DNA of 21,711 nt. Origin: a virus. Below the pieces are notes generated by a model. That model searched no databases. It saw only the letters and a list, made by a program, of their open reading frames with translations, and was not told where the DNA came from. Below are positions 3,162-21,628 of the stretch, piece by piece. The stretch is taken from positions 1 to 21,711 of IMG/VR virus record IMGVR_UViG_3300023179_004965; one strand, written 5' to 3'. The position numbers were made by a program, and so were the translations under genes. Position 1 is the first letter of the stretch. Every line of letters begins with the position of its first letter.

Positions 3162-3902
3162 TTAATTTTTTTTATATTCCCAAATATAACCATAGGCTGT
3201 TTTTTGTTTACCTTTACAACAAGTCGATATATTAGAAGTAGGATATTTTAATACTCTTTCTATTTCAGTAAAACTATCCCATTCTTGTATAAAGTTTCCA
3301 TTTTTTGATTTTTGAATAACAGTTATATTATTACCATGTTTATTATTATACCCAGGAAATACATTAGTATAACTCCAAACAAATCCTTGAGAAGTTTTAT
3401 TTTTACCAGATAAATTATCTTTTATTCCTTTACCATATTTTAATTCAGCTTTAACTATTGATTCCCACTCTTGTATAAAGTTACCATTTATATCAAACTG
3501 GTATATTTTAACAGAATTGGATTTACTAGTTATTGATTTTATATGATTTGTTCTTTTATATTTACCTGCTTTTCCTTTATTAGAGTTACTAATTTTTAAT
3601 TTAGTTTCATTACTTACTTTACCTCTACCATTACCTAATTTTAAATTTAAACCATTTAATCCTAATACATTATAAAATAAACCCCAATATATTTCTCTAT
3701 CATTCAGTTGTTCAATAGTACATTCTTCTATTACTTCAAATATATGATTAATAGGATTATATTTTATTAAAGAATTATATAATTTAATTTGTTTTTTACA
3801 TCTTTTTAATTTATTGTATTCTTCCCATCGTCTCTTTATATTTTTAGATTGACCAATATAAATTTTGTTATTTGGATTTATTATTTTATATATTCCTATC
3901 AT
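3162..3902 (-). CDS. GIY-YIG homing endonuclease with NUMOD modules
   Basis: A 246-residue free-standing endonuclease. The catalytic GIY-YIG domain fills residues 1-90: GIYKI at the start, KIYIGQSKNIKRRW (with the catalytic Arg pattern), and the later Glu of DREIYWG. SNETKLKISNSNKGK near 97-111 is a NUMOD3-type DNA-binding motif. Two copies of an IENR1/NUMOD1-like module follow; both contain KxGNFIQEW or NGNFIQEW and end in GFVWSY or GYIWEY. Such proteins cut DNA of related phages lacking the gene and spread by repair. It sits 13 bases upstream of the clamp-loader small-subunit gene, a usual target type. No leftover of a neighbouring gene was found on its far side (3903-3951). A TATATTTA box lies 6 bases upstream of the start. 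Confidence 0.93.
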   Translation of the reverse strand: MIGIYKIINPNNKIYIGQSKNIKRRWEEYNKLKRCKKQIKLYNSLIKYNPINHIFEVIEECTIEQLNDREIYWGLFYNVLGLNGLNLKLGNGRGKVSNETKLKISNSNKGKAGKYKRTNHIKSITSKSNSVKIYQFDINGNFIQEWESIVKAELKYGKGIKDNLSGKNKTSQGFVWSYTNVFPGYNNKHGNNITVIQKSKNGNFIQEWDSFTEIERVLKYPTSNISTCCKGKQKTAYGYIWEYKKN

Positions 3903-14914: not shown

Positions 14915-15434
14915 TTCTTTGTTTATCATTTTGCCACTGTCCATCATACATTTCTGTGGGTGTGCATTCGTAGAAGTAAATTTGAGCTACCCGAGCATCT
15001 TTTTCAATAAAAATAGGCTCAAATACATAAAGTAATGTACCCATATTCTCTGTTTTAAATCCAGGATCAAATACTGGGCTATTAATGATAGCTCCGTTAC
15101 GGTAAAGTGAAGAGCGTTGTTTGATAAATGCTACTCTATTATTTGGGATAGTACAGCCTTCATTAAAAGTAATATCGTATACACCTTCATATAATAACCA
15201 TCCTTCACAACCATCTAATTTAATGGACTCTATTGGTTTATATGTAGTTAATTCAGTTTTATCTTTTAATACTTTACCGATTTTACCATCAGCATGGTAA
15301 ACATCTGCACTAATTTTATTACCTATTTTTTGTACTGCTTTTAAACTAAGATCAAAACCTACTTGCGCTGGTTTGCCTTTAGTGTGTTCTAATTTTAATA
15401 GATTTTCTTCTAGTATTTGATTTACGTTTAACAT
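14907..15434 (-). CDS. dCTP deaminase/dUTPase-fold protein
   Basis: A 175-residue protein of the trimeric dUTPase/dCTP-deaminase fold. Seen are the N-terminal QVGFDLSL (the family's DL motif), the phosphate-binding KQRSSLYRNG, and SPVFDPGFKTENMG, corresponding to the AHxIDPGWxG region of Dcd. Dcd deaminates dCTP to dUTP and dUTPase hydrolyses dUTP; both lead towards dTTP. The Glu that follows the DPG region in bacterial Dcd (IVLEF) is not at that place here (TLLYVFEP), so activity may differ or the alignment shifts. The gene starts its own cluster just after a strong hairpin. Confidence 0.7.
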   Translation of the reverse strand: MLNVNQILEENLLKLEHTKGKPAQVGFDLSLKAVQKIGNKISADVYHADGKIGKVLKDKTELTTYKPIESIKLDGCEGWLLYEGVYDITFNEGCTIPNNRVAFIKQRSSLYRNGAIINSPVFDPGFKTENMGTLLYVFEPIFIEKDARVAQIYFYECTPTEMYDGQWQNDKQRNG

Positions 15435-15454
15435 AACATTGATTTTTAAATAGA

Positions 15455-15489
15455 GATAGGCGAAAGATAATTAAATCTTTTCGCCTATC
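15455..15489 (-). terminator. Strong stem-loop, probable terminator after the holin-like gene
   Basis: GATAGGCGAAAAGAT and ATCTTTCGCCTATC form a stem of about 14 pairs with one bulge and a six-base loop (TTAATT on the minus strand). It lies between the holin-like gene and the next unit. The bases after the stem (TCTATTTAAAAATC) are only partly T-rich, so it may be a leaky terminator or a processing site. Confidence 0.6.
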
Positions 15490-15508
15490 CAAATTAAACT
15501 AAATTAAA

Positions 15509-15850
15509 TTACTTTTTAGTTTTTTTAACGATTTTTGGAGCTTCAACAGCTACTGGTTCTTCTACTTTAGCTGGTTCTTCAACAGTAGCAACTGGTTCTT
15601 CAGTAGCAACTGGCTCTTCAACAGCAGCGGGTACTTCAGTAGTAGCTGGTTTGGAAGCAAACAATTCTACAAGCATTTTTAAAGGTCCATCAGGTAAGAA
15701 TCGACCAATAACAACCACAGCAGCTGCTATTAAAGCGTTTACTAATGTTACTTCACCAGTAGTAAGTTGTTCTTGTAATACTACAAAGAAAGCAGCTAAA
15801 ATACCAACAATAGATGTAACTGGGGAATCACCTAAAATTTTCTTAAGCAT
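15509..15850 (-). CDS. Small membrane protein with two helices and repeat tail (holin-like)
   Basis: A 113-residue protein. Residues about 10-28 (SPVTSIVGILAAFFVVLQEQ) and 36-53 (LVNALIAAAVVVIGRFL) are two membrane helices. Residues 66-108 are a Pro/Glu/Val-rich tail with repeats of EEPVAT/EEPAK/EEPVAV type, then a basic end KIVKKTKK. Two helices with a charged C-terminus fit a class II holin, but no lysis enzyme lies next to it and the long acidic repeat tail is unusual, so this is tentative. A TATATTTA box (15873-15880) and CCAAATTTATA leader precede the ATG. A stem-loop follows the stop. Confidence 0.55.
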   Translation of the reverse strand: MLKKILGDSPVTSIVGILAAFFVVLQEQLTTGEVTLVNALIAAAVVVIGRFLPDGPLKMLVELFASKPATTEVPAAVEEPVATEEPVATVEEPAKVEEPVAVEAPKIVKKTKK

Positions 15851-15885
15851 AGTTTATAAATTTGGTTTTCAATAAATATATGATT

Positions 15886-15948
15886 TTAACGATAACCTTC
15901 CATTCCTAGTTTAAGCATATCTAATACTTCTGCTTTAGCTGTTCTATT
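15886..15948 (-). pseudogene. Leftover of a folE 3' end (about 20 codons)
   Basis: Minus-strand frame reading NRTAKAEVLDMLKLGMEGYR then TAA. It matches the C-terminus of the intact FolE at 16453-17181 (NKTAKAEVLEMLKLNIQTLY), with 19 identical bases in a row (AACAGCTAAAGCAGAAGTA). It begins right at the stop of the 151-residue ORF and has no start of its own. It is diverged from the intact copy, so it is not a recent duplication. Confidence 0.85.
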
Positions 15949-16402
15949 AATTTATATTAATAATAATTCTGTTTTCTTTAGTAAATCCTTCTCCATTTAC
16001 TACCATATCACCATTTGCATTCCTTTCTGTATCTACAATACAGTATCTCCATCTTAGTCCTTGTAGTTTACTTACCACTTTTGATATTTTACACCAAGTA
16101 GGTTTAAACATATCGCTCGCTGTATCTATGTCATCTAATAGCCTAAACATTTTCTCAATAATATGAATTAATGTTGCTATATTTATACCTCTTCTCTGGG
16201 TTGTATCAATAGCATACGTGTCTTCAATCATTTTAACTAAATCATCATCAACAGCATGTGCTTCTTTTGCTTTATTATAACAGTATTCTACATAGTTTTT
16301 ATTACCTTCTATACCTTCATACCCTTCAAGAATATTTTCAATAGAACATAGTATGTCTCTTAATCTGTCTGCTGCATATAGCATTTCATGTTTATTATTC
16401 AT
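15947..16402 (-). CDS. 151-residue protein of unknown function, candidate mobile gene
   Basis: A mostly helical 151-residue protein, starting MNNKHEMLYAADRLRDILCS and ending FTKENRIIININ. Heptad-like and amphipathic stretches run through residues 8-30, 60-110 and 105-120. No HNH, GIY-YIG or LAGLIDADG motif is visible. Its location is telling: it separates the intact folE from a leftover folE 3' end whose first bases touch its stop codon. This is the mirror image of the GIY-YIG gene next to queE. It may therefore have been brought in together with a replacement folE end, as homing genes are. Whether it encodes an endonuclease or is merely a passenger is open. Confidence 0.6.
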   Translation of the reverse strand: MNNKHEMLYAADRLRDILCSIENILEGYEGIEGNKNYVEYCYNKAKEAHAVDDDLVKMIEDTYAIDTTQRRGINIATLIHIIEKMFRLLDDIDTASDMFKPTWCKISKVVSKLQGLRWRYCIVDTERNANGDMVVNGEGFTKENRIIININ

Positions 16403-16452
16403 TTTTTATATTTTAAATTTTCAAATAAATCCATGACAAGAAATATAATTTA

Positions 16453-17181
16453 TTAGTATAGAGTTTGAATATTCAGTTTTAACATTTCAAGTACTTCTGC
16501 TTTAGCTGTTTTATTATGATCGGAAAATACACCAGATACTTCACTTGTTACCATTGAAGCTCCTTGATGTTTTACACCTCTACAACTTACGCATTGATGT
16601 CCTGCATGTACTATTACCATTACTCCAATATTATCTTCACATATAGCATCAATAGCATTATGAATTGCTACTGTAAGTTGTTCTTGAATAGCACCTCTAC
16701 GAGCAAAATGTTCTACTACACGATTTAATTTACTTAAACCAACTACTTTACCATCTTTACCAGGTATATAGGCAACGTGTGCTTTACCTAGAATTGCTTG
16801 ATGATGGTGTGAACACATTGATACGATTGGTATATCGCGCTCTAAAATAATACCTGTGTATCCATCACTTGGAAATGCAGTAATGTCTGAAGGTAATTCA
16901 TATCTACCTTTCCATAGATCAAACACATAAGCTTTAGCTACGCGGCGTGGCGTTTCCATACTGTTTGGATCGTTTCTCCAATCAACACCTAATGCTGTAA
17001 GAAAATTGCCATAAGCTATTTCAGCTTCATCTACAATTTTCCATTTTTCATCATCAGTAAGTGAACGATGATATCCATCCTCAATAAGAGAAGCCAAATG
17101 ATTTGAAATACCATTTGCAAATCCAGGTTGTGCTGTTTCTAATGCTTCAACATTAGCGATTTTTCTACGTTTATTCTCCAT
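16453..17181 (-). CDS. folE: GTP cyclohydrolase I (FolE)
   Basis: A 242-residue protein making dihydroneopterin triphosphate from GTP, the first step of tetrahydrofolate and of preQ0/queuosine synthesis. Visible motifs are ETPRRVAKAY, the zinc/active-site SMCSHHHQAI (CEHH in most relatives), GLSKLNRVVEHFARR, QEQLT, and HQCVSCRGVKHQGASMVTS carrying the third zinc Cys and the active-site His. The length fits the family, with a short N-terminal extension. In a phage with queE and queC nearby it most likely feeds 7-deazaguanine synthesis. It overlaps the upstream zinc-motif gene by 11 bases. Its last 20 codons appear to have been replaced during insertion of the 151-residue ORF. Confidence 0.95.
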   Translation of the reverse strand: MENKRRKIANVEALETAQPGFANGISNHLASLIEDGYHRSLTDDEKWKIVDEAEIAYGNFLTALGVDWRNDPNSMETPRRVAKAYVFDLWKGRYELPSDITAFPSDGYTGIILERDIPIVSMCSHHHQAILGKAHVAYIPGKDGKVVGLSKLNRVVEHFARRGAIQEQLTVAIHNAIDAICEDNIGVMVIVHAGHQCVSCRGVKHQGASMVTSEVSGVFSDHNKTAKAEVLEMLKLNIQTLY

Positions 17182-17338
17182 ATTCTTCTTTATACATTAT
17201 TTTAAAATAACATTTTTCACATAATTGACCTGCACCTTCAACGTAATAATTTCTTTCATCTATGTGATCTGATTTAAGATAAGTAGTATCTTCATTACAG
17301 ACGATACAATACTCTTTTTCATCGGTTAGTTTTTCCAT
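17171..17338 (-). CDS. Small protein with two CxxC motifs
   Basis: A 55-residue protein from the ATG at 17338 (MEKLTDEKEYCIVCNED); a longer version from 17359 would overlap the membrane-protein gene further and is less likely. CIVC near the N-terminus and CEKC near residue 44 make a four-cysteine zinc site, with acidic and aromatic residues between. No specific family is recognised. It overlaps folE by 11 bases and the upstream small membrane-protein gene by 20, so all are translated from one message. Confidence 0.6.
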   Translation of the reverse strand: MEKLTDEKEYCIVCNEDTTYLKSDHIDERNYYVEGAGQLCEKCYFKIMYKEEYGE

Positions 17339-17438
17339 TTTTATCGTTTTTGTCAGCAAACCAAATAGCTATTTTTAGTAAGGATAAAGGAAAAGCTGCT
17401 GTTACTATTAAACCTGCTATTAGGTATATTATTTTCAA
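17319..17438 (-). CDS. 39-residue single-helix membrane protein, TTG start
   Basis: Read from a TTG at 17438, three bases after the thioesterase stop. The product has one strongly hydrophobic helix (IIYLIAGLIVTAAFPLSLLK) followed by a polar, basic tail (FADKNDKNGKTNR). No in-frame ATG exists upstream, so the TTG start is needed. The frame fills the gap between two genes exactly and ends overlapping the next gene, which supports it. Function is unknown; small single-helix proteins are common in T4-like genomes. Confidence 0.5.
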   Translation of the reverse strand: MKIIYLIAGLIVTAAFPLSLLKIAIWFADKNDKNGKTNR

Positions 17439-17440
17439 TA

Positions 17441-17800
17441 TTATTTCTTTTTATTATGTGCTATTGGTCTTCCATTTTCATCTAATAATACAAATACAAT
17501 TTTTTCAACTCTAATAATAGTTTGTTTAGTATCTTTATTTCGTACTTCACATACGATAGTAATAGATGTTGTACCTACAGACACTAAATCACATCCTATC
17601 TCAATAACATCACCTGTCTTAGCTGAAGATACGAAATTAATTTCGCTCATTGCCTTAGTAACTATATTTGTTTTATTTAGTTGGCAAATAGCAAATATAA
17701 CTGCTTCTTCGTCTATCCATTTTAAAACTTGTCCACCAAATAAAGTACCTCTAGCGTTTAAATCGCTTGGTTTAATTAGTTTTCTAGTTCTAAATTTCAT
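17441..17800 (-). CDS. Acyl-CoA thioesterase, hot-dog fold (YciA-like)
   Basis: A 119-residue single hot-dog domain. The N-terminal signature KPSDLNARGTLFGGQVLKW, followed by IDEEA, matches YciA/acyl-CoA hydrolase proteins, including the Asn-x-x-Gly and Gly-Gly turn and the Asp on the central helix. EINFVSSAKTGDVIEI and the later VFVLLDENGRP strands complete the fold. Such enzymes hydrolyse acyl-CoAs as hexamers of dimers. Its ATG shares one base with the queE stop. A fatty-acid enzyme inside a deazaguanine cluster is unexpected; it may act on a different thioester, or be a metabolic gene carried along. Confidence 0.85.
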   Translation of the reverse strand: MKFRTRKLIKPSDLNARGTLFGGQVLKWIDEEAVIFAICQLNKTNIVTKAMSEINFVSSAKTGDVIEIGCDLVSVGTTSITIVCEVRNKDTKQTIIRVEKIVFVLLDENGRPIAHNKKK

Positions 17801-18648
17801 TATACATTAAGTGTTTTATCCCAAGCTGAAATATGTAAGCGAGTTAAACCACGGAATTTGTATTTTTTAGCCATTTCTAATACAAATTGAGTACGCTCAT
17901 GAAAATCAGCTTGATTATCTAATCCTGGCATACAAACCACTTTGGAAAGCGGTATACTAAATTCATCAACAAAGTCACGTAGTAGTTCATTAACATCTTC
18001 TTCATTTGATATAACAAATTTAAATTGGTAATTACTATGTTCCATTATGCGTTTAATAGCTTCGGGTACGATACGTTGTTTAGCTGGTAAGCCTGAATTT
18101 GCTAGTTTAGGTGAGCAGTTGATTTGATCAAGTATTTTAAATAAAGATTTATCAATTATAACTGTACCATTTGTTTCTATTTCATAGTATGGACTAATCT
18201 CTTCCACGTCTATAAGTGCTAATTCTTCAAGCATCCAATAGCCAGTAAAATTAACTATTGCTTCTTGATGTCCTTTAATTGTGGGTTCACCACCAGTCCA
18301 AATAATATGAATATTACCTTTTAAAATATCATCATAGATACCTTGTTCTTTCCAACGGTCAATTAGATATTGAAAGTCCTTATCTTCACCTCTCCAAGCC
18401 CATTGTGAGAGAGAATCACACGTCCATGTTGCTTTACCTTCAGCATGAAGATCACCAACAATTATCTCTCCATCTTCTAATAATTTATCTTTAACTATTT
18501 GATTCATATGTTTTCTAGATAGTCCGCAGCTAAGATTGCATATTCCCAGTCTTACAAAATATGAAGGTACTCCTGTGCTTACTCCTTCTCCTTGCACTGA
18601 AAAAAAGTCACTTGATATGAGCAACTTATTCGGATCTATTTTTGACAT
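17800..18648 (-). CDS. queE: QueE, 7-carboxy-7-deazaguanine synthase (radical SAM)
   Basis: A 282-residue radical SAM enzyme turning 6-carboxy-tetrahydropterin into 7-carboxy-7-deazaguanine. It has the family opening FSVQGEGVSTGVPSYFVRL, then C37-NLS-C41. The third cluster cysteine is not at the usual place: after C41 there is an insertion of about 33 residues, then TWTCDS with C77, where the normal sequence is CxxCDT. TGGEP (SAM binding), ETNGT and SPK motifs follow. The start overlaps the GIY-YIG gene by 13 bases. Its N-terminal codons differ almost throughout from the leftover copy at 19548-19598, although the protein is the same, showing they are old alleles. Confidence 0.93.
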   Translation of the reverse strand: MSKIDPNKLLISSDFFSVQGEGVSTGVPSYFVRLGICNLSCGLSRKHMNQIVKDKLLEDGEIIVGDLHAEGKATWTCDSLSQWAWRGEDKDFQYLIDRWKEQGIYDDILKGNIHIIWTGGEPTIKGHQEAIVNFTGYWMLEELALIDVEEISPYYEIETNGTVIIDKSLFKILDQINCSPKLANSGLPAKQRIVPEAIKRIMEHSNYQFKFVISNEEDVNELLRDFVDEFSIPLSKVVCMPGLDNQADFHERTQFVLEMAKKYKFRGLTRLHISAWDKTLNV

Positions 18649-19505
18649 AATTTTAAAATTTTATTTTCTGTTTTATTACGTATTTTAATATTATTCTGAG
18701 TTAGGATTATTCGAATTAAATTATTGTTGCATTTATATTTTCTGCCTAAGTCACTCAATGTATATCCTTTCTCATATAAAGATATAATTTCATTTTTGAC
18801 TTCCCAAACTTCAGGTCTATCTTTTTTCATTGGTTTTTCAATGTTGTCCTTTCTATTTCTGAGTTGTATTTTATTTTCTATAAGGCGTTTTGTAACGAAT
18901 GAGGTACTTTTATTAAAATGATTAGCTATTCTATTTACACTCCATTTATCTTCACTGTATAGCTTGATCAATTTATTTAGGTATGTTTCATCAAACTCTA
19001 AATCACGAGCACCAGATGTTATTGAATTTTTAAATCGTATTTGTTGTGATTCGGAAGCTGTTCTTAAAATATCATTACATATTATTTTAATAGTACCTCT
19101 ATCACATTTATATTTTTCAGCTAATATTGTTCTAGGTATTCCTTGTTTATATTGCTCTCTAATTTCATTGTAGTAATCGTACCATAAGTCCTTTCTAAAG
19201 CCATGTATACTTCCATTTAGTCCAGAATTACTATTTATATTATACGTGTTAGGATCATTACAGAACTCTTCAGTTAGGTACTCTTTTTCTTTTTGTTCAG
19301 CTTCCTGTCGCGTAGAGTAGACGTGCAGTACTTCTTTCTTAAAGTTTTCGATACCTTCAATCTCAATTAGTTTTACTATAATGTTGCTACTGCTCATGTA
19401 TACATCTTGTTCAGGATTAGGATGTGTTCTTACTCCTATATAGATTTTATTATTTTTTAGATTAGTAATCCTATAAACATAATGTATGTTATTCATATCT
19501 GTCAT
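18636..19505 (-). CDS. GIY-YIG homing endonuclease with helix-turn-helix repeats
   Basis: A 289-residue free-standing endonuclease. The N-terminal 95 residues are the GIY-YIG domain: HYVYRITNLKNNKIYIGVRT, then the AEQKEKEYL Glu helix. The rest contains three repeated helix-turn-helix units, each of the type ...YKQGIPRTILAEKYKCDRGTI, near residues 115-145, 175-210 and 235-275, likely reading DNA sequence. Its stop lies within the start of queE (13-base overlap), and a leftover queE 5' end lies beyond its start. So it was probably inserted at the 5' end of queE, bringing a new queE beginning with it. An alternative start three codons later is possible. Confidence 0.9.
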   Translation of the reverse strand: MTDMNNIHYVYRITNLKNNKIYIGVRTHPNPEQDVYMSSSNIIVKLIEIEGIENFKKEVLHVYSTRQEAEQKEKEYLTEEFCNDPNTYNINSNSGLNGSIHGFRKDLWYDYYNEIREQYKQGIPRTILAEKYKCDRGTIKIICNDILRTASESQQIRFKNSITSGARDLEFDETYLNKLIKLYSEDKWSVNRIANHFNKSTSFVTKRLIENKIQLRNRKDNIEKPMKKDRPEVWEVKNEIISLYEKGYTLSDLGRKYKCNNNLIRIILTQNNIKIRNKTENKILKLCQK

Positions 19506-19547
19506 TTATAATAAATATTGACAGATTATAATTTCTACTCGATTAAT

Positions 19548-19598
19548 TCAATAGAAGTCTGAGCTTATAAGTAATTTATTTGGATTGATCTTGCTCAT
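19548..19598 (-). pseudogene. Leftover of a queE 5' end (16 codons)
   Basis: Reads MSKINPNKLLISSDFY then TGA, against MSKIDPNKLLISSDFF in the intact QueE at 17800-18648. Most codons differ synonymously (for example TCA/AGC, TTG/TTA, CTC/CTT). The ATG lies inside the end of the 73-residue gene, where the original queE start presumably was. The GIY-YIG gene begins 43 bases downstream of it. Confidence 0.9.
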
Positions 19599-19797
19599 TA
19601 ATATATGCTTTATATTTTTCTTTATCTATTACTATCATTTTAGTAGGGGCAGGTGTACCAGTAAAGGGACAGTAGTTAATTTGAGTTGCATATTCTTCAT
19701 TATGTGCCCACATTTTTCCTTCTTCATCTATTTCTATGTGAGTTATTGCTTGACCCCACATTCTATTAGGTGCTCTGTATTGTAAATTCTGTTGCAT
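19576..19797 (-). CDS. 73-residue protein of unknown function
   Basis: Starts MQQNLQYRAPNRMWGQAITH. A central acidic stretch (EIDEEGKMWAHNEEYATQ) is followed by INYCPFTGTPAP, which resembles the CPFCG knuckle of short zinc proteins but with only one Cys, so metal binding is doubtful. The C-terminus is polar. The original queE start lies inside its end, which shows that this gene was directly upstream of, and coupled to, queE before the endonuclease arrived. It begins two bases after the stop of the 40-residue gene. No function is known to me. Confidence 0.6.
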   Translation of the reverse strand: MQQNLQYRAPNRMWGQAITHIEIDEEGKMWAHNEEYATQINYCPFTGTPAPTKMIVIDKEKYKAYINEQDQSK

Positions 19798-19799
19798 GG

Positions 19800-19922
19800 T
19801 TATTTCTTAGTATATTTTATATAATTAAATATACAATTTAAATTTGGCCATTCCAAAATTCCTAAAATACTAACGTGGTGTTCACCGCATAAACCTAATG
19901 TATGTTCTATAAGATGCATCAT
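19800..19922 (-). CDS. 40-residue protein of unknown function
   Basis: From an ATG at 19922 (a second ATG is the next codon) to a TAA two bases before the 73-residue gene. The product contains HLIEHTLGLCGEHHVSILG and a C-terminal CIFNYIKYTKK. The Cys and three His in LGLCGEHH could bind a metal. The tight junction with the next gene and the peptide's patterned sequence support it. It starts only about 9 bases after the T-tract of a strong terminator, so it needs a very close promoter or read-through. Confidence 0.55.
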   Translation of the reverse strand: MMHLIEHTLGLCGEHHVSILGILEWPNLNCIFNYIKYTKK

Positions 19923-19930
19923 ATTATATA

Positions 19931-19968
19931 AAATAAAAAACATCCCCACCAATTAAGGTGGGGATGTT
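19931..19968 (-). terminator. Rho-independent terminator after the HTH gene
   Basis: On the minus strand AACATCCCCACC, loop TTAATT, GGTGGGGATGTT: a perfect 12-pair GC-rich stem, followed by TTTTATTTTATAT. This is the clearest terminator in the window. Its loop is the same TTAATT as in the stem at 15455-15489. Confidence 0.92.
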
Positions 19969-19979
19969 GAGGGCGTGAA

Positions 19980-20210
19980 TTAAGCAAATTCACTGTTTTT
20001 CATGCGGCGACGAGTAATGTTATACATCTCGTTAGCCATTTCTTGAGGCACAGAACGACGACCTGCTACTACGTTGCTAACATGGGATTCCGAATACCCA
20101 GTAAGTTCAGCAACACGAGTAACATCTCCTTGACGTTGGCGAGCTTTAAAGAAGTTAAGCTTCGCGGTGCGATTTAATTTGTTCGCACGAACTTTTGTTT
20201 GGTAACTCAT
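19980..20210 (-). CDS. Helix-turn-helix DNA-binding protein
   Basis: A 76-residue basic protein. Residues about 28-60 (GDVTRVAELTGYSESHVSNV, then VAGRRSVPQEMANEMY) form a Cro/XRE-type helix-turn-helix with the recognition helix in SESHVSNVVAGRR. The N-terminus is Lys/Arg-rich and the C-terminus ends in TRRRMKNSEFA. It probably represses or activates phage promoters. It has its own leader and a strong terminator right after the stop, so it is a single-gene unit that can be expressed strongly. Its codons look richer in G and C than those of its neighbours, which could reflect high expression. Confidence 0.75.
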   Translation of the reverse strand: MSYQTKVRANKLNRTAKLNFFKARQRQGDVTRVAELTGYSESHVSNVVAGRRSVPQEMANEMYNITRRRMKNSEFA

Positions 20211-20235
20211 AACTAAAAATTGAATTTTTATTTGT

Positions 20236-20258
20236 TTAAATATAAAATTTTATTTTAC
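20236..20258 (-). promoter_or_regulatory. Promoter-like element upstream of the HTH gene
   Basis: Minus strand GGTAAAATAAAATTTTA followed by TATTTAA, resembling the elements before polymerase, clamp and clamp loader, but about 26 bases before the ATG. This distance argues that the shared motif is a promoter and not a ribosome signal. The GGTAAAATAA part coincides with the last codons and stop of the HNH gene, so part of the match may be coding. Confidence 0.4.
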
Positions 20259-20687
20259 CCTCTCCAAATATTCTTTTATATCAATTCTACTTTTCTTTTC
20301 TTGATAATGAAAATCAGTATGACAATTTCGACATAACGGAATACATTTTTTAAGTTCTGTTTTTAAAGTTTCTAAAGTACAACTTTTATAATAAGGAATA
20401 GGATAATCTTTAGTATTAGGATTAATATGATGATAATCAATTAACCAATATCTTTTTTCTCCACATTTCTTACACCCGCAAATTGCTCTATGTTTATTTA
20501 TAAAGGTTTGACCTCTATCATAACATGCTTTATTAGATTTACGTTGGTATTTTTTATACTTATCTTTATTTTTTTCATTATGAATTTTATTATAGGCATG
20601 TTGACATAATTTACATTTACCAGCACCCTTATAAAATTCACTTATTGGTTTAATTTTATTACAATTAGGACATATTTTATTGCTCAT
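20250..20687 (-). CDS. HNH endonuclease with N-terminal zinc ribbon
   Basis: A 145-residue protein. It starts with CPNCNKIKPISEFYKGAGKC and CKLC, a zinc ribbon common in phage HNH proteins. The catalytic region has CGCKKCGEK, the IDYHHINPN segment with the general-base His pair, and LCRNCHTDFH, the closing zinc/His part of the HNH fold. It is probably a homing endonuclease inserted between queC and the HTH gene. I find no leftover of either neighbour next to it. Its promoter region contains an inverted repeat (20700-20732). Confidence 0.9.
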   Translation of the reverse strand: MSNKICPNCNKIKPISEFYKGAGKCKLCQHAYNKIHNEKNKDKYKKYQRKSNKACYDRGQTFINKHRAICGCKKCGEKRYWLIDYHHINPNTKDYPIPYYKSCTLETLKTELKKCIPLCRNCHTDFHYQEKKSRIDIKEYLERVK

Positions 20688-20699
20688 ATATTATATTTT

Positions 20700-20732
20700 G
20701 GATCCGGTAATAAATATATTAAAACCGGATCC
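20700..20732. repeat. Inverted repeat around a TATATTTA box
   Basis: GGATCCGGT and ACCGGATCC, a perfect nine-base inverted repeat separated by 15 bases that contain TATATTTA on the minus strand (20718-20711). It lies between queC and the HNH gene. There is no T-tract next to it, so it looks more like an operator or a recombination site than a terminator. Confidence 0.6.
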
Positions 20733-20740
20733 TAATATAA

Positions 20741-21628
20741 TTATTTATTATGTTCTTCTAGAACTTTTAAAACATAATCACGAACTACCTCCCAAGACAC
20801 AGGACCACTTAAATCAGCATAATTTACAGGATCAGGACGGCCGAGTTTAATAAATGCTTCAATACGTTCTACTGATGATGCTGATTTATAGTCTGAAAAC
20901 CATTCTACCCATCCTTGTCCTCCATCCATACTAAATTGCGTTTGCAATTTGATCGTGCCAATAGGAATTGGTTTGTAACTCGTATTAGTACGCTTATACA
21001 CTTCATCAAAATCAAGACCAAGTTTTTCACAACACTCTAATCCATCTTGCAATATACCAAATTTATCAGTAAGAAGATAAGGGGTATAAATTAATACTTT
21101 TTCAGCTTCCCAATTACCGATTCTAAATGCTTCCATATCAGCATCTCTAAACTCTTGACGGCAGTCAGGATAAATAGCGTGATCACCAGCGTGAATACCC
21201 ATTGCAATATAACACTGAGTATTGTTTTTATTAGCAATTGATAATGCTACTGCTTGGATAAGTGAACTGAAGATTTTGTTGCGATTAGGAACTACAGTCT
21301 CTTTCATATTATCCTGTTCGTAATGTCCTTCGGGTACTTCTTTACCGCCTTCTACAAGAGCGGAGTTTAGAAGGTTTTGCAATCCTTCAATCTTAATAAC
21401 TTGATGATCTACATAGAAAGGATAATCTATTGTTTTTTCTTTTTCATCAACAACAAACTGTCCGTTAATGTAGCTGATTAAACTCTGCGCTCTTTCAAGC
21501 TCTACTTTATGCTTTTGTCCATAATCAAAACTGAGGGCAGTAATTGCATAGTCGTTAGCCATTAAATGTAAAAGAAGGGTAGAACTATCCATACCTCCAC
21601 TTAATGATAATACTGCTTGTTTTTTCAT
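20741..21628 (-). CDS. queC: QueC-like 7-cyano-7-deazaguanine (preQ0) synthase
   Basis: A 295-residue PP-loop ATPase. LSLSGGMDSSTLLLHL (SGGMDSS at 10-16) is the ATP-binding loop; FDYGQKHKVEL, VVPNRNKIF, MGIHAGDH and YPDCRQEF are QueC hallmarks. QueC turns 7-carboxy-7-deazaguanine into preQ0. Odd: the C-terminal zinc motif of QueC (four Cys ahead of VERxEAF) is lost. In the matching stretch SDYKSASSVERIEAF the cysteine places are taken by Asp246, Ser249 and Ser252, and the upstream one by Ser217; about 20 extra residues lie between. The length exceeds the usual 220-230. So it may be a phage subtype with changed stability or chemistry. Its start overlaps the preceding stop (ATGA). Confidence 0.9.
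   Translation of the reverse strand: MKKQAVLSLSGGMDSSTLLLHLMANDYAITALSFDYGQKHKVELERAQSLISYINGQFVVDEKEKTIDYPFYVDHQVIKIEGLQNLLNSALVEGGKEVPEGHYEQDNMKETVVPNRNKIFSSLIQAVALSIANKNNTQCYIAMGIHAGDHAIYPDCRQEFRDADMEAFRIGNWEAEKVLIYTPYLLTDKFGILQDGLECCEKLGLDFDEVYKRTNTSYKPIPIGTIKLQTQFSMDGGQGWVEWFSDYKSASSVERIEAFIKLGRPDPVNYADLSGPVSWEVVRDYVLKVLEEHNK

Follow-up and report, generated by a model that had tools for sequence, protein, structure and literature searches.

A probable passenger gene behind folE and the probable relic of a homing endonuclease in a viral genome fragment

How a 151-aa open reading frame (ORF) came to lie between an intact folE gene and a second, stranded folE 3′ end is the question raised by the locus described here. 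The window, as the whole stretch analyzed is called, is the record of a viral fragment of 21.7 kb, and all of the loci compared with it are metagenomic virus contigs, designated below by L numbers. Among named phages, those of Flavobacterium and Cellulophaga match the folE of the window best, which only suggests that the virus infects a host of the Bacteroidota. On the minus strand, the order is folE, a spacer of 50 nt, the 151-aa ORF and the leftover folE tail (Table 1). The original prediction regarded the ORF as a possible new type of homing gene. The reading preferred here, to which a probability of roughly 0.8 is assigned, is that a free-standing homing endonuclease brought the ORF to the 3′ end of folE as a passenger, the endonuclease gene having since been deleted.

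Table 1. Features of the window and cargo genes of related loci
Feature	Positions or loci	Strand	Basis
folE (GTP cyclohydrolase I), intact, with imported C-terminal tail ...NKTAKAEVLEMLKLNIQTLY	16453..17181	-	Pfam PF01227 GTP_cyclohydroI 6.1e-45; tail compared with relatives
Coconversion-like tract, 3′ 480 bp of folE	16453..16932	-	Identity drop vs L006; change of closest relatives
Putative 50-nt endonuclease relic, folE-to-ORF spacer: leader fragment + 3′ end	16403..16452	-	Match to L058 GIY-YIG 3′ end
151-aa ORF, putative cargo (passenger) gene	15947..16402	-	Relatives; dN/dS
Stranded original folE 3′ end, 20 codons + stop, NRTAKAEVLDMLKLGMEGYR*	15886..15948	-	Orthologous junction in L005
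queE, 5′ half diverged beside GIY-YIG gene	17800..18648	-	Identity to L006
GIY-YIG homing endonuclease at queE 5′ end	18636..19505	-	SegE_GIY-YIG 9e-7; phrog_314 5e-23
Stranded original queE 5′ end, 15 codons (MSKINPNKLLISSDF), upstream of GIY-YIG ORF	about 19554..19598	-	
Cargo: GNAT	L338, L341		PF00583 3e-11 (L205 copy of L338 contig)
Cargo: Tox-ART-HYD1-like (ADP-ribosyltransferase-like)	L340		1e-6 (L219 copy)
Cargo: 2CompART-like (ADP-ribosyltransferase-like)	L342, L344, L345		6e-4 (L184 copy), below family cut-off
Cargo: 108-aa ORF	L339		Related to gene of large phage L002, 48% identity, 1e-34
Cargo: 87-aa ORF	L343, L226		

The replaced folE end and its spacer

Regarding the two folE ends, both are present in the sequence as originally predicted: 20 codons of a second C-terminus follow the 151-aa ORF, and the intact folE ends differently. 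The leftover begins 2 nt within the stop codon of the ORF; it shares 12/20 amino acids and 43/63 nt with the tail that the intact folE carries, and 55/63 nt with the native folE tail of L010. In a scan for folE-type tails in up to 4 kb downstream of folE, run on about 80 related loci besides the window, the leftover of the window scored 100 vs 10-36 at loci without a leftover, and chance is thereby excluded. Other true leftovers scored 36-49, the lowest value (36) belonging to L058, where just nine residues survive. Past the leftover, the DNA can be aligned with the native folE/d113 junction of the relative L005, indicating that the leftover is the original end and that the intact folE bears an imported one.

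L005 and its companion L006 are empty-site relatives with conserved flanks, in which one folE each is present and the 151-aa ORF is absent, the window being occupied. The insert is thus present or absent among close relatives at one end of one gene. Between L006 and the window, identity is 96% over 2.5 kb of flanks and falls to 83% in the 3′-terminal 480 bp of folE, beside the insert (Fisher p=1.6e-21, a value that is somewhat optimistic because the tract limits were set after the profile was seen, though the drop is large). L005 and L006 are clearly the nearest relatives over folE codons 1-85 (94% vs 82% for the next relative) and drop out of the best relatives over codons 151-200, others being nearer from codon 151 onwards. 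The comparison of folE flanks that had been proposed as a check found both empty sites and an identity drop restricted to the 3′ part of folE, as coconversion of flanking target-gene sequence would leave it. Entry of the ORF into folE together with a replacement tail, as first proposed, agrees with this coconversion-like tract, with the empty-site relatives and with occupied folE sites elsewhere. The folE tail of L005 and L006 is of a similar “LNLQ” type although no insert is present there, so that such a tail alone is no proof of homing.

The 3′ end of folE appears as a repeated target. A GIY-YIG gene follows folE in L257-L259 and L260-L266, and leftover folE tails lie behind the insert in L057, L058, L059, L067 and L260, each with an endonuclease. 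In L058, the leftover (LNMEGYR) is fused onto the C-terminus of the endonuclease itself, whereas in the other four loci several small ORFs lie between the endonuclease and the leftover tail. Judged by gene order, these four loci present the architecture of the window with a predicted endonuclease still in place.

In the window, the endonuclease gene is probably represented by the 50-nt spacer. Its core (16409-16434, ATGGATTTATTTGAAAATTTAAAATA) is identical at 24/26 nt to the 3′ end of the folE-associated GIY-YIG gene of L058, which encodes GFIWKFK, and the Trp codon of this peptide is now a stop in the spacer. The score of the spacer against the endonuclease 3′ end was reached by 0/5000 dinucleotide-preserving shuffles; in a looser test with the whole gene and mononucleotide shuffles, it was reached by 1/500 for L058 and 0/500 for L037. 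A similar scar without cargo stands behind folE in L027 (GGC TTT ATT TGG AAA TTT AAA ATA AAA TAG). From this resemblance, the spacer is probably an internally deleted endonuclease gene, the exact parent of which cannot be named because the stump is short and many GIY-YIG/HNH genes end in GFIWK(Y/F)K. The loss of an endonuclease with tail and cargo retained has a parallel, on sequence comparison, at a clamp-loader gene: L159 and L130 share a tail (MSTISRILEAVK) and a cargo family, and an HNH gene is found in L159 only. In a second pair at the clamp-loader gene, L172 contains the HNH gene and a 187-aa ORF, and L104 contains a 173-aa relative and no HNH gene.

The 151-aa protein as a probable passenger

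Profile searches with the 151-aa protein gave no match in Pfam, NCBIfam or PADLOC. Weak PHROG matches (phrog_4680, E=0.036; for the relative in L094, phrog_30083, E=0.003, and phrog_38419, E=0.011) were discarded, as they cover short stretches and belong to families of unknown function. Among seven aligned sequences of the family, neither a GIY/YIG or LAGLIDADG motif nor an invariant histidine was found; the latter result argues against HNH, His-Cys and Vsr-type chemistry, and PD-(D/E)XK is not decidable by motif alone. Two AlphaFold2 models were of modest confidence, a mainly helical one having a mean pLDDT of 68, and Foldseek gave no match below E=0.1 in PDB/BFVD for a model of this confidence. 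A PDB sequence match to 1wwz (159 residues; E=0.05 over 43 residues) was judged to be due to chance. The ORF thus shows no recognizable catalytic motif of a homing endonuclease, in line with the earlier observation that no known motif is visible. The profile and structure searches suggested at that time for a nuclease identity returned no usable profile match and no significant Foldseek match, and the view of the ORF as a new type of homing gene or unrecognized nuclease found no support in profile matches, in invariant histidines or in a model of modest confidence. These sequence and model data imply that the 151-aa protein is probably not a nuclease, and is a passenger rather than a vehicle. 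The alternative offered in the original prediction, that the ORF depends on another nuclease, fits better, since the ORF follows endonucleases elsewhere and a stump lies beside folE in the window.

Relatives at 65-80% identity occur in eleven viral contigs; none was found in the bacterial genome contigs searched, and tblastn with the window protein gave no match in GenBank phage or plasmid records. With the L094 relative, tblastn returned Vibrio phage head proteins at E>=1 only, which were judged to be chance matches. The conserved DNA stops near the ORF limits, and the flanks are unrelated between relatives. Between more diverged copies of the ORF, dN/dS is about 0.1-0.3, indicating that the ORF is maintained by purifying selection.

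The contexts of these relatives include two types of endonuclease. In L001, the ORF lies 3′ of a 216-aa GIY-YIG gene with an overlap of 8 nt, and the two together split an FAD-dehydrogenase gene that other phages carry in one piece. In L094-L096, it lies 3′ of a 235-aa HNH endonuclease (phrog_655, 4e-46) with an overlap of 4 nt, and the pair follows a clamp-loader gene whose tail has been replaced. This repeated pairing with two predicted endonuclease types is read directly from the contigs. The ORF of L092 starts 17 nt past a tRNA (Rfam tRNA, 39 bits), and those of L002, L003 and L087-L089 lie among small ORFs of large phages; no endonuclease is found immediately upstream in these six contigs. 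Behind the ORF in L001-L003, L087-L089, L092 and L094, no obvious leftover gene tail was found, the frames being judged by eye.

Several further observations were made around these relatives. The tRNA of L092 (7856-7968) is 113 nt long by Rfam and is not called by ARAGORN; it may hold an insertion. In L094 (8485-8927), a 62-aa ORF after the 151-aa relative starts with MSQEQLKMKM and the next gene with MSNEQLKMKM, and the 62-aa ORF may be a further insertion, by which the start of a gene was duplicated. In L087 (8954-11080), about 0.9 kb downstream of the 151-aa relative, a thymidylate synthase gene is split in two by a 323-aa ORF with CxxC motifs, which is likely an endonuclease. Many small ORFs of these phages, as in L001 (3017-3583) and L178 (879-1154), start with a common peptide (MKxxELKQIIREEI...) that may be a signal for packaging or targeting.

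Interchangeable cargo and the queE insertion

The endonucleases that accompany the ORF also occur at the same sites without it. At the clamp-loader site, the HNH gene is present without the ORF in L159, L169 and L172-L174. The GIY-YIG gene of L001 recurs at its site in other phages, where the same slot holds different cargo (Table 1), so far as the contigs can be read a swapping of cargo behind one endonuclease, and in most of these L001-type loci the cargo begins within the end of the endonuclease gene, with ATGGAAAATAAA (MENK) as its first codons. The comparison of sites in L001, L094 and the flavoprotein-site series leads us to infer that endonuclease and cargo move together between phages. 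A second cargo family (EFVPYEQALALKELGFDEPCFGYY...; L057:6367-6801, L159:2018-2458, L130, L155) occurs behind folE and clamp-loader genes, with or without an endonuclease.

A wider idea, which is held tentatively and at slightly less than even odds, is that unrelated effector-type genes (ADP-ribosyltransferase-like, acetyltransferase-like and the 151-aa family) are exchanged in a standing “cargo slot” at the 3′ end of the endonuclease gene, are spread by homing to the ends of several target genes and persist as ordinary genes of the phage after the endonuclease has decayed. By association with its slot-mates, an effector-like role of the 151-aa protein is suggested, and the ADP-ribosyltransferase-like and acetyltransferase-like neighbors would perhaps point to host takeover or counter-defence. 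If the slot is general, its genes would be good candidates for such factors.

The window holds a second insertion of the same signature at queE. A 15-codon queE start is stranded, which bears out the companion claim on queE, the 5′ half of queE is diverged (52-93% identity to L006 at 18000-18660, 93-100% at 17820-17999) and the GIY-YIG gene is intact; by their layout, the putative folE and queE events are mirror images, in agreement with the original prediction. The same prediction found it striking that two deazaguanine genes were hit in one phage. This is probably not special, since clamp-loader and FAD-dehydrogenase genes are likewise struck in related phages, and deazaguanine genes as special targets were dropped from consideration once those sites had been found. 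Concerning introns, no group I intron was matched by Rfam in the window, L001, L087 or L094, nor at a relaxed threshold in window positions 15400-20800, and stop codons separate the parts, unlike the arrangement of a group I intron or intein.

Additional endonuclease-related features were observed. The GIY-YIG gene at queE recurs in L026 (513-2097) with 89% identity, and two small ORFs (91 and 75 aa) there separate the stranded queE start from the endonuclease, as cargo on the 5′ side of the latter. The C-terminal part of the window copy gives several helix-turn-helix matches, among them an NCBIfam Cbp1-type match (E=6e-9, below the family cut-off). Another GIY-YIG ORF at 3162-3902 (minus strand) contains NUMOD1/NUMOD3 and I-HmuI NUMOD-like domains and is flanked by two small ORFs. 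A 145-aa ORF at 20250-20687 (minus strand) adjoins a queC-like gene (20741-21628); it contains CxxC pairs, matches HNH weakly (PF01844, E=0.065) and may be a third endonuclease located next to a deazaguanine gene.

Proposed history, rival readings and known systems

In the proposed history, the donor would have carried a folE with a different tail, followed by a GIY-YIG-type endonuclease gene ending in GFIWKFK and, directly 3′, the cargo ORF. An ancestral folE with the tail ...KLGMEGYR would have been cleaved near its 3′ end and repaired from this donor; we infer the starting double-strand break, as well as the type of endonuclease that acted, from the replaced tail, leftover tail, diverged tract and endonuclease-like stump in the window. 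Repair would have copied in the 3′ part of the donor folE (about 480 bp) with the endonuclease and the cargo, stranding the last 20 codons of the recipient folE behind the insert. With the new tail, folE stays intact and has presumably lost the cutting site, which would protect the occupied gene. A later internal deletion would have reduced the endonuclease to the 50-nt stump and left the cargo alone. As folE, endonuclease and 151-aa ORF were found together at none of the loci compared, this intermediate is a conjectural one.

Recombination between co-infecting phages is common, and an intergenic insertion by ordinary homologous or illegitimate recombination, with crossovers at the observed boundaries, would need no endonuclease. 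This reading is considered unlikely, because the folE end is repeatedly struck by endonuclease-bearing inserts with leftover tails, the spacer holds a stump, and the queE insertion in the same window has the same signature together with an intact endonuclease. Somewhat less credible still is the possibility that the ORF itself is a homing endonuclease of an unrecognized family, which would have cut folE and inserted its own copy there. The ORF does stand alone at a homing-type scar with replaced tail, leftover tail and diverged tract, and relatives of it are found at several unrelated sites, the conserved stretch lying close to the ORF limits; against this stand the lack of usable profile matches and of nuclease motifs described above, the helical low-confidence model without a nuclease match, and the two sites at which the ORF follows a recognizable endonuclease that also occurs there without the ORF. 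The stump, moreover, accounts for the window without a new nuclease.

A tandem duplication of folE, in which the second copy decayed to a 20-codon remnant while the ORF arose in or replaced the rest, would explain the presence of two folE ends. It is regarded as very improbable, given that no trace of the remainder of a second folE is found, that the ORF has relatives at 65-80% identity in unrelated contexts, and that the empty-site relatives carry a single folE. Carriage of the ORF by a since-deleted endonuclease is therefore preferred over all three rivals. Under this preferred history, a readable scar composed of replaced tail, endonuclease stump, cargo and leftover tail would trace orphan accessory genes of phages to past homing. 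Such a scar can be searched for automatically beside any gene end, and it suggests how small effector-like genes reach distant phages without integrases or transposases. The cargo slot, if true, would be a route for the capture and delivery of single accessory genes.

For the free-standing homing endonuclease genes of T4-like phages (seg, mob), gene-end insertion, coconversion and split genes are established (PMC2988022). The loci described here are alike in these features, including split genes as in Aeh1 nrdA, and in start-stop overlaps with neighboring genes. Unlike those systems, the surviving gene in the window is a putative non-nuclease passenger, the endonuclease is a stump (intact endonucleases being found at other folE loci) and the original gene end is a 20-codon scrap. 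In phage T6, SegB drives the amplification of anti-defence genes (PMC13096335), another tie between a phage homing endonuclease and accessory genes close by; SegB amplifies segments within one genome, whereas the signature in the window is that of transfer between phages. In the part of the open-access literature that was covered, no description of such a 3′ cargo slot was found. The nearest published idea is that of HEG-islands (Barth et al. 2023, PMC10448857), in which, as described, core or essential genes are bracketed by two or more endonuclease genes. Both have in common that homing endonuclease genes move neighboring cargo between phages. In contrast to the bracketing of core genes in HEG-islands, a single endonuclease here accompanies a short, swappable, non-core gene in a fixed 3′ slot, and the cassette sits at one end of its target gene with a replaced tail, the endonuclease having been lost in the window.
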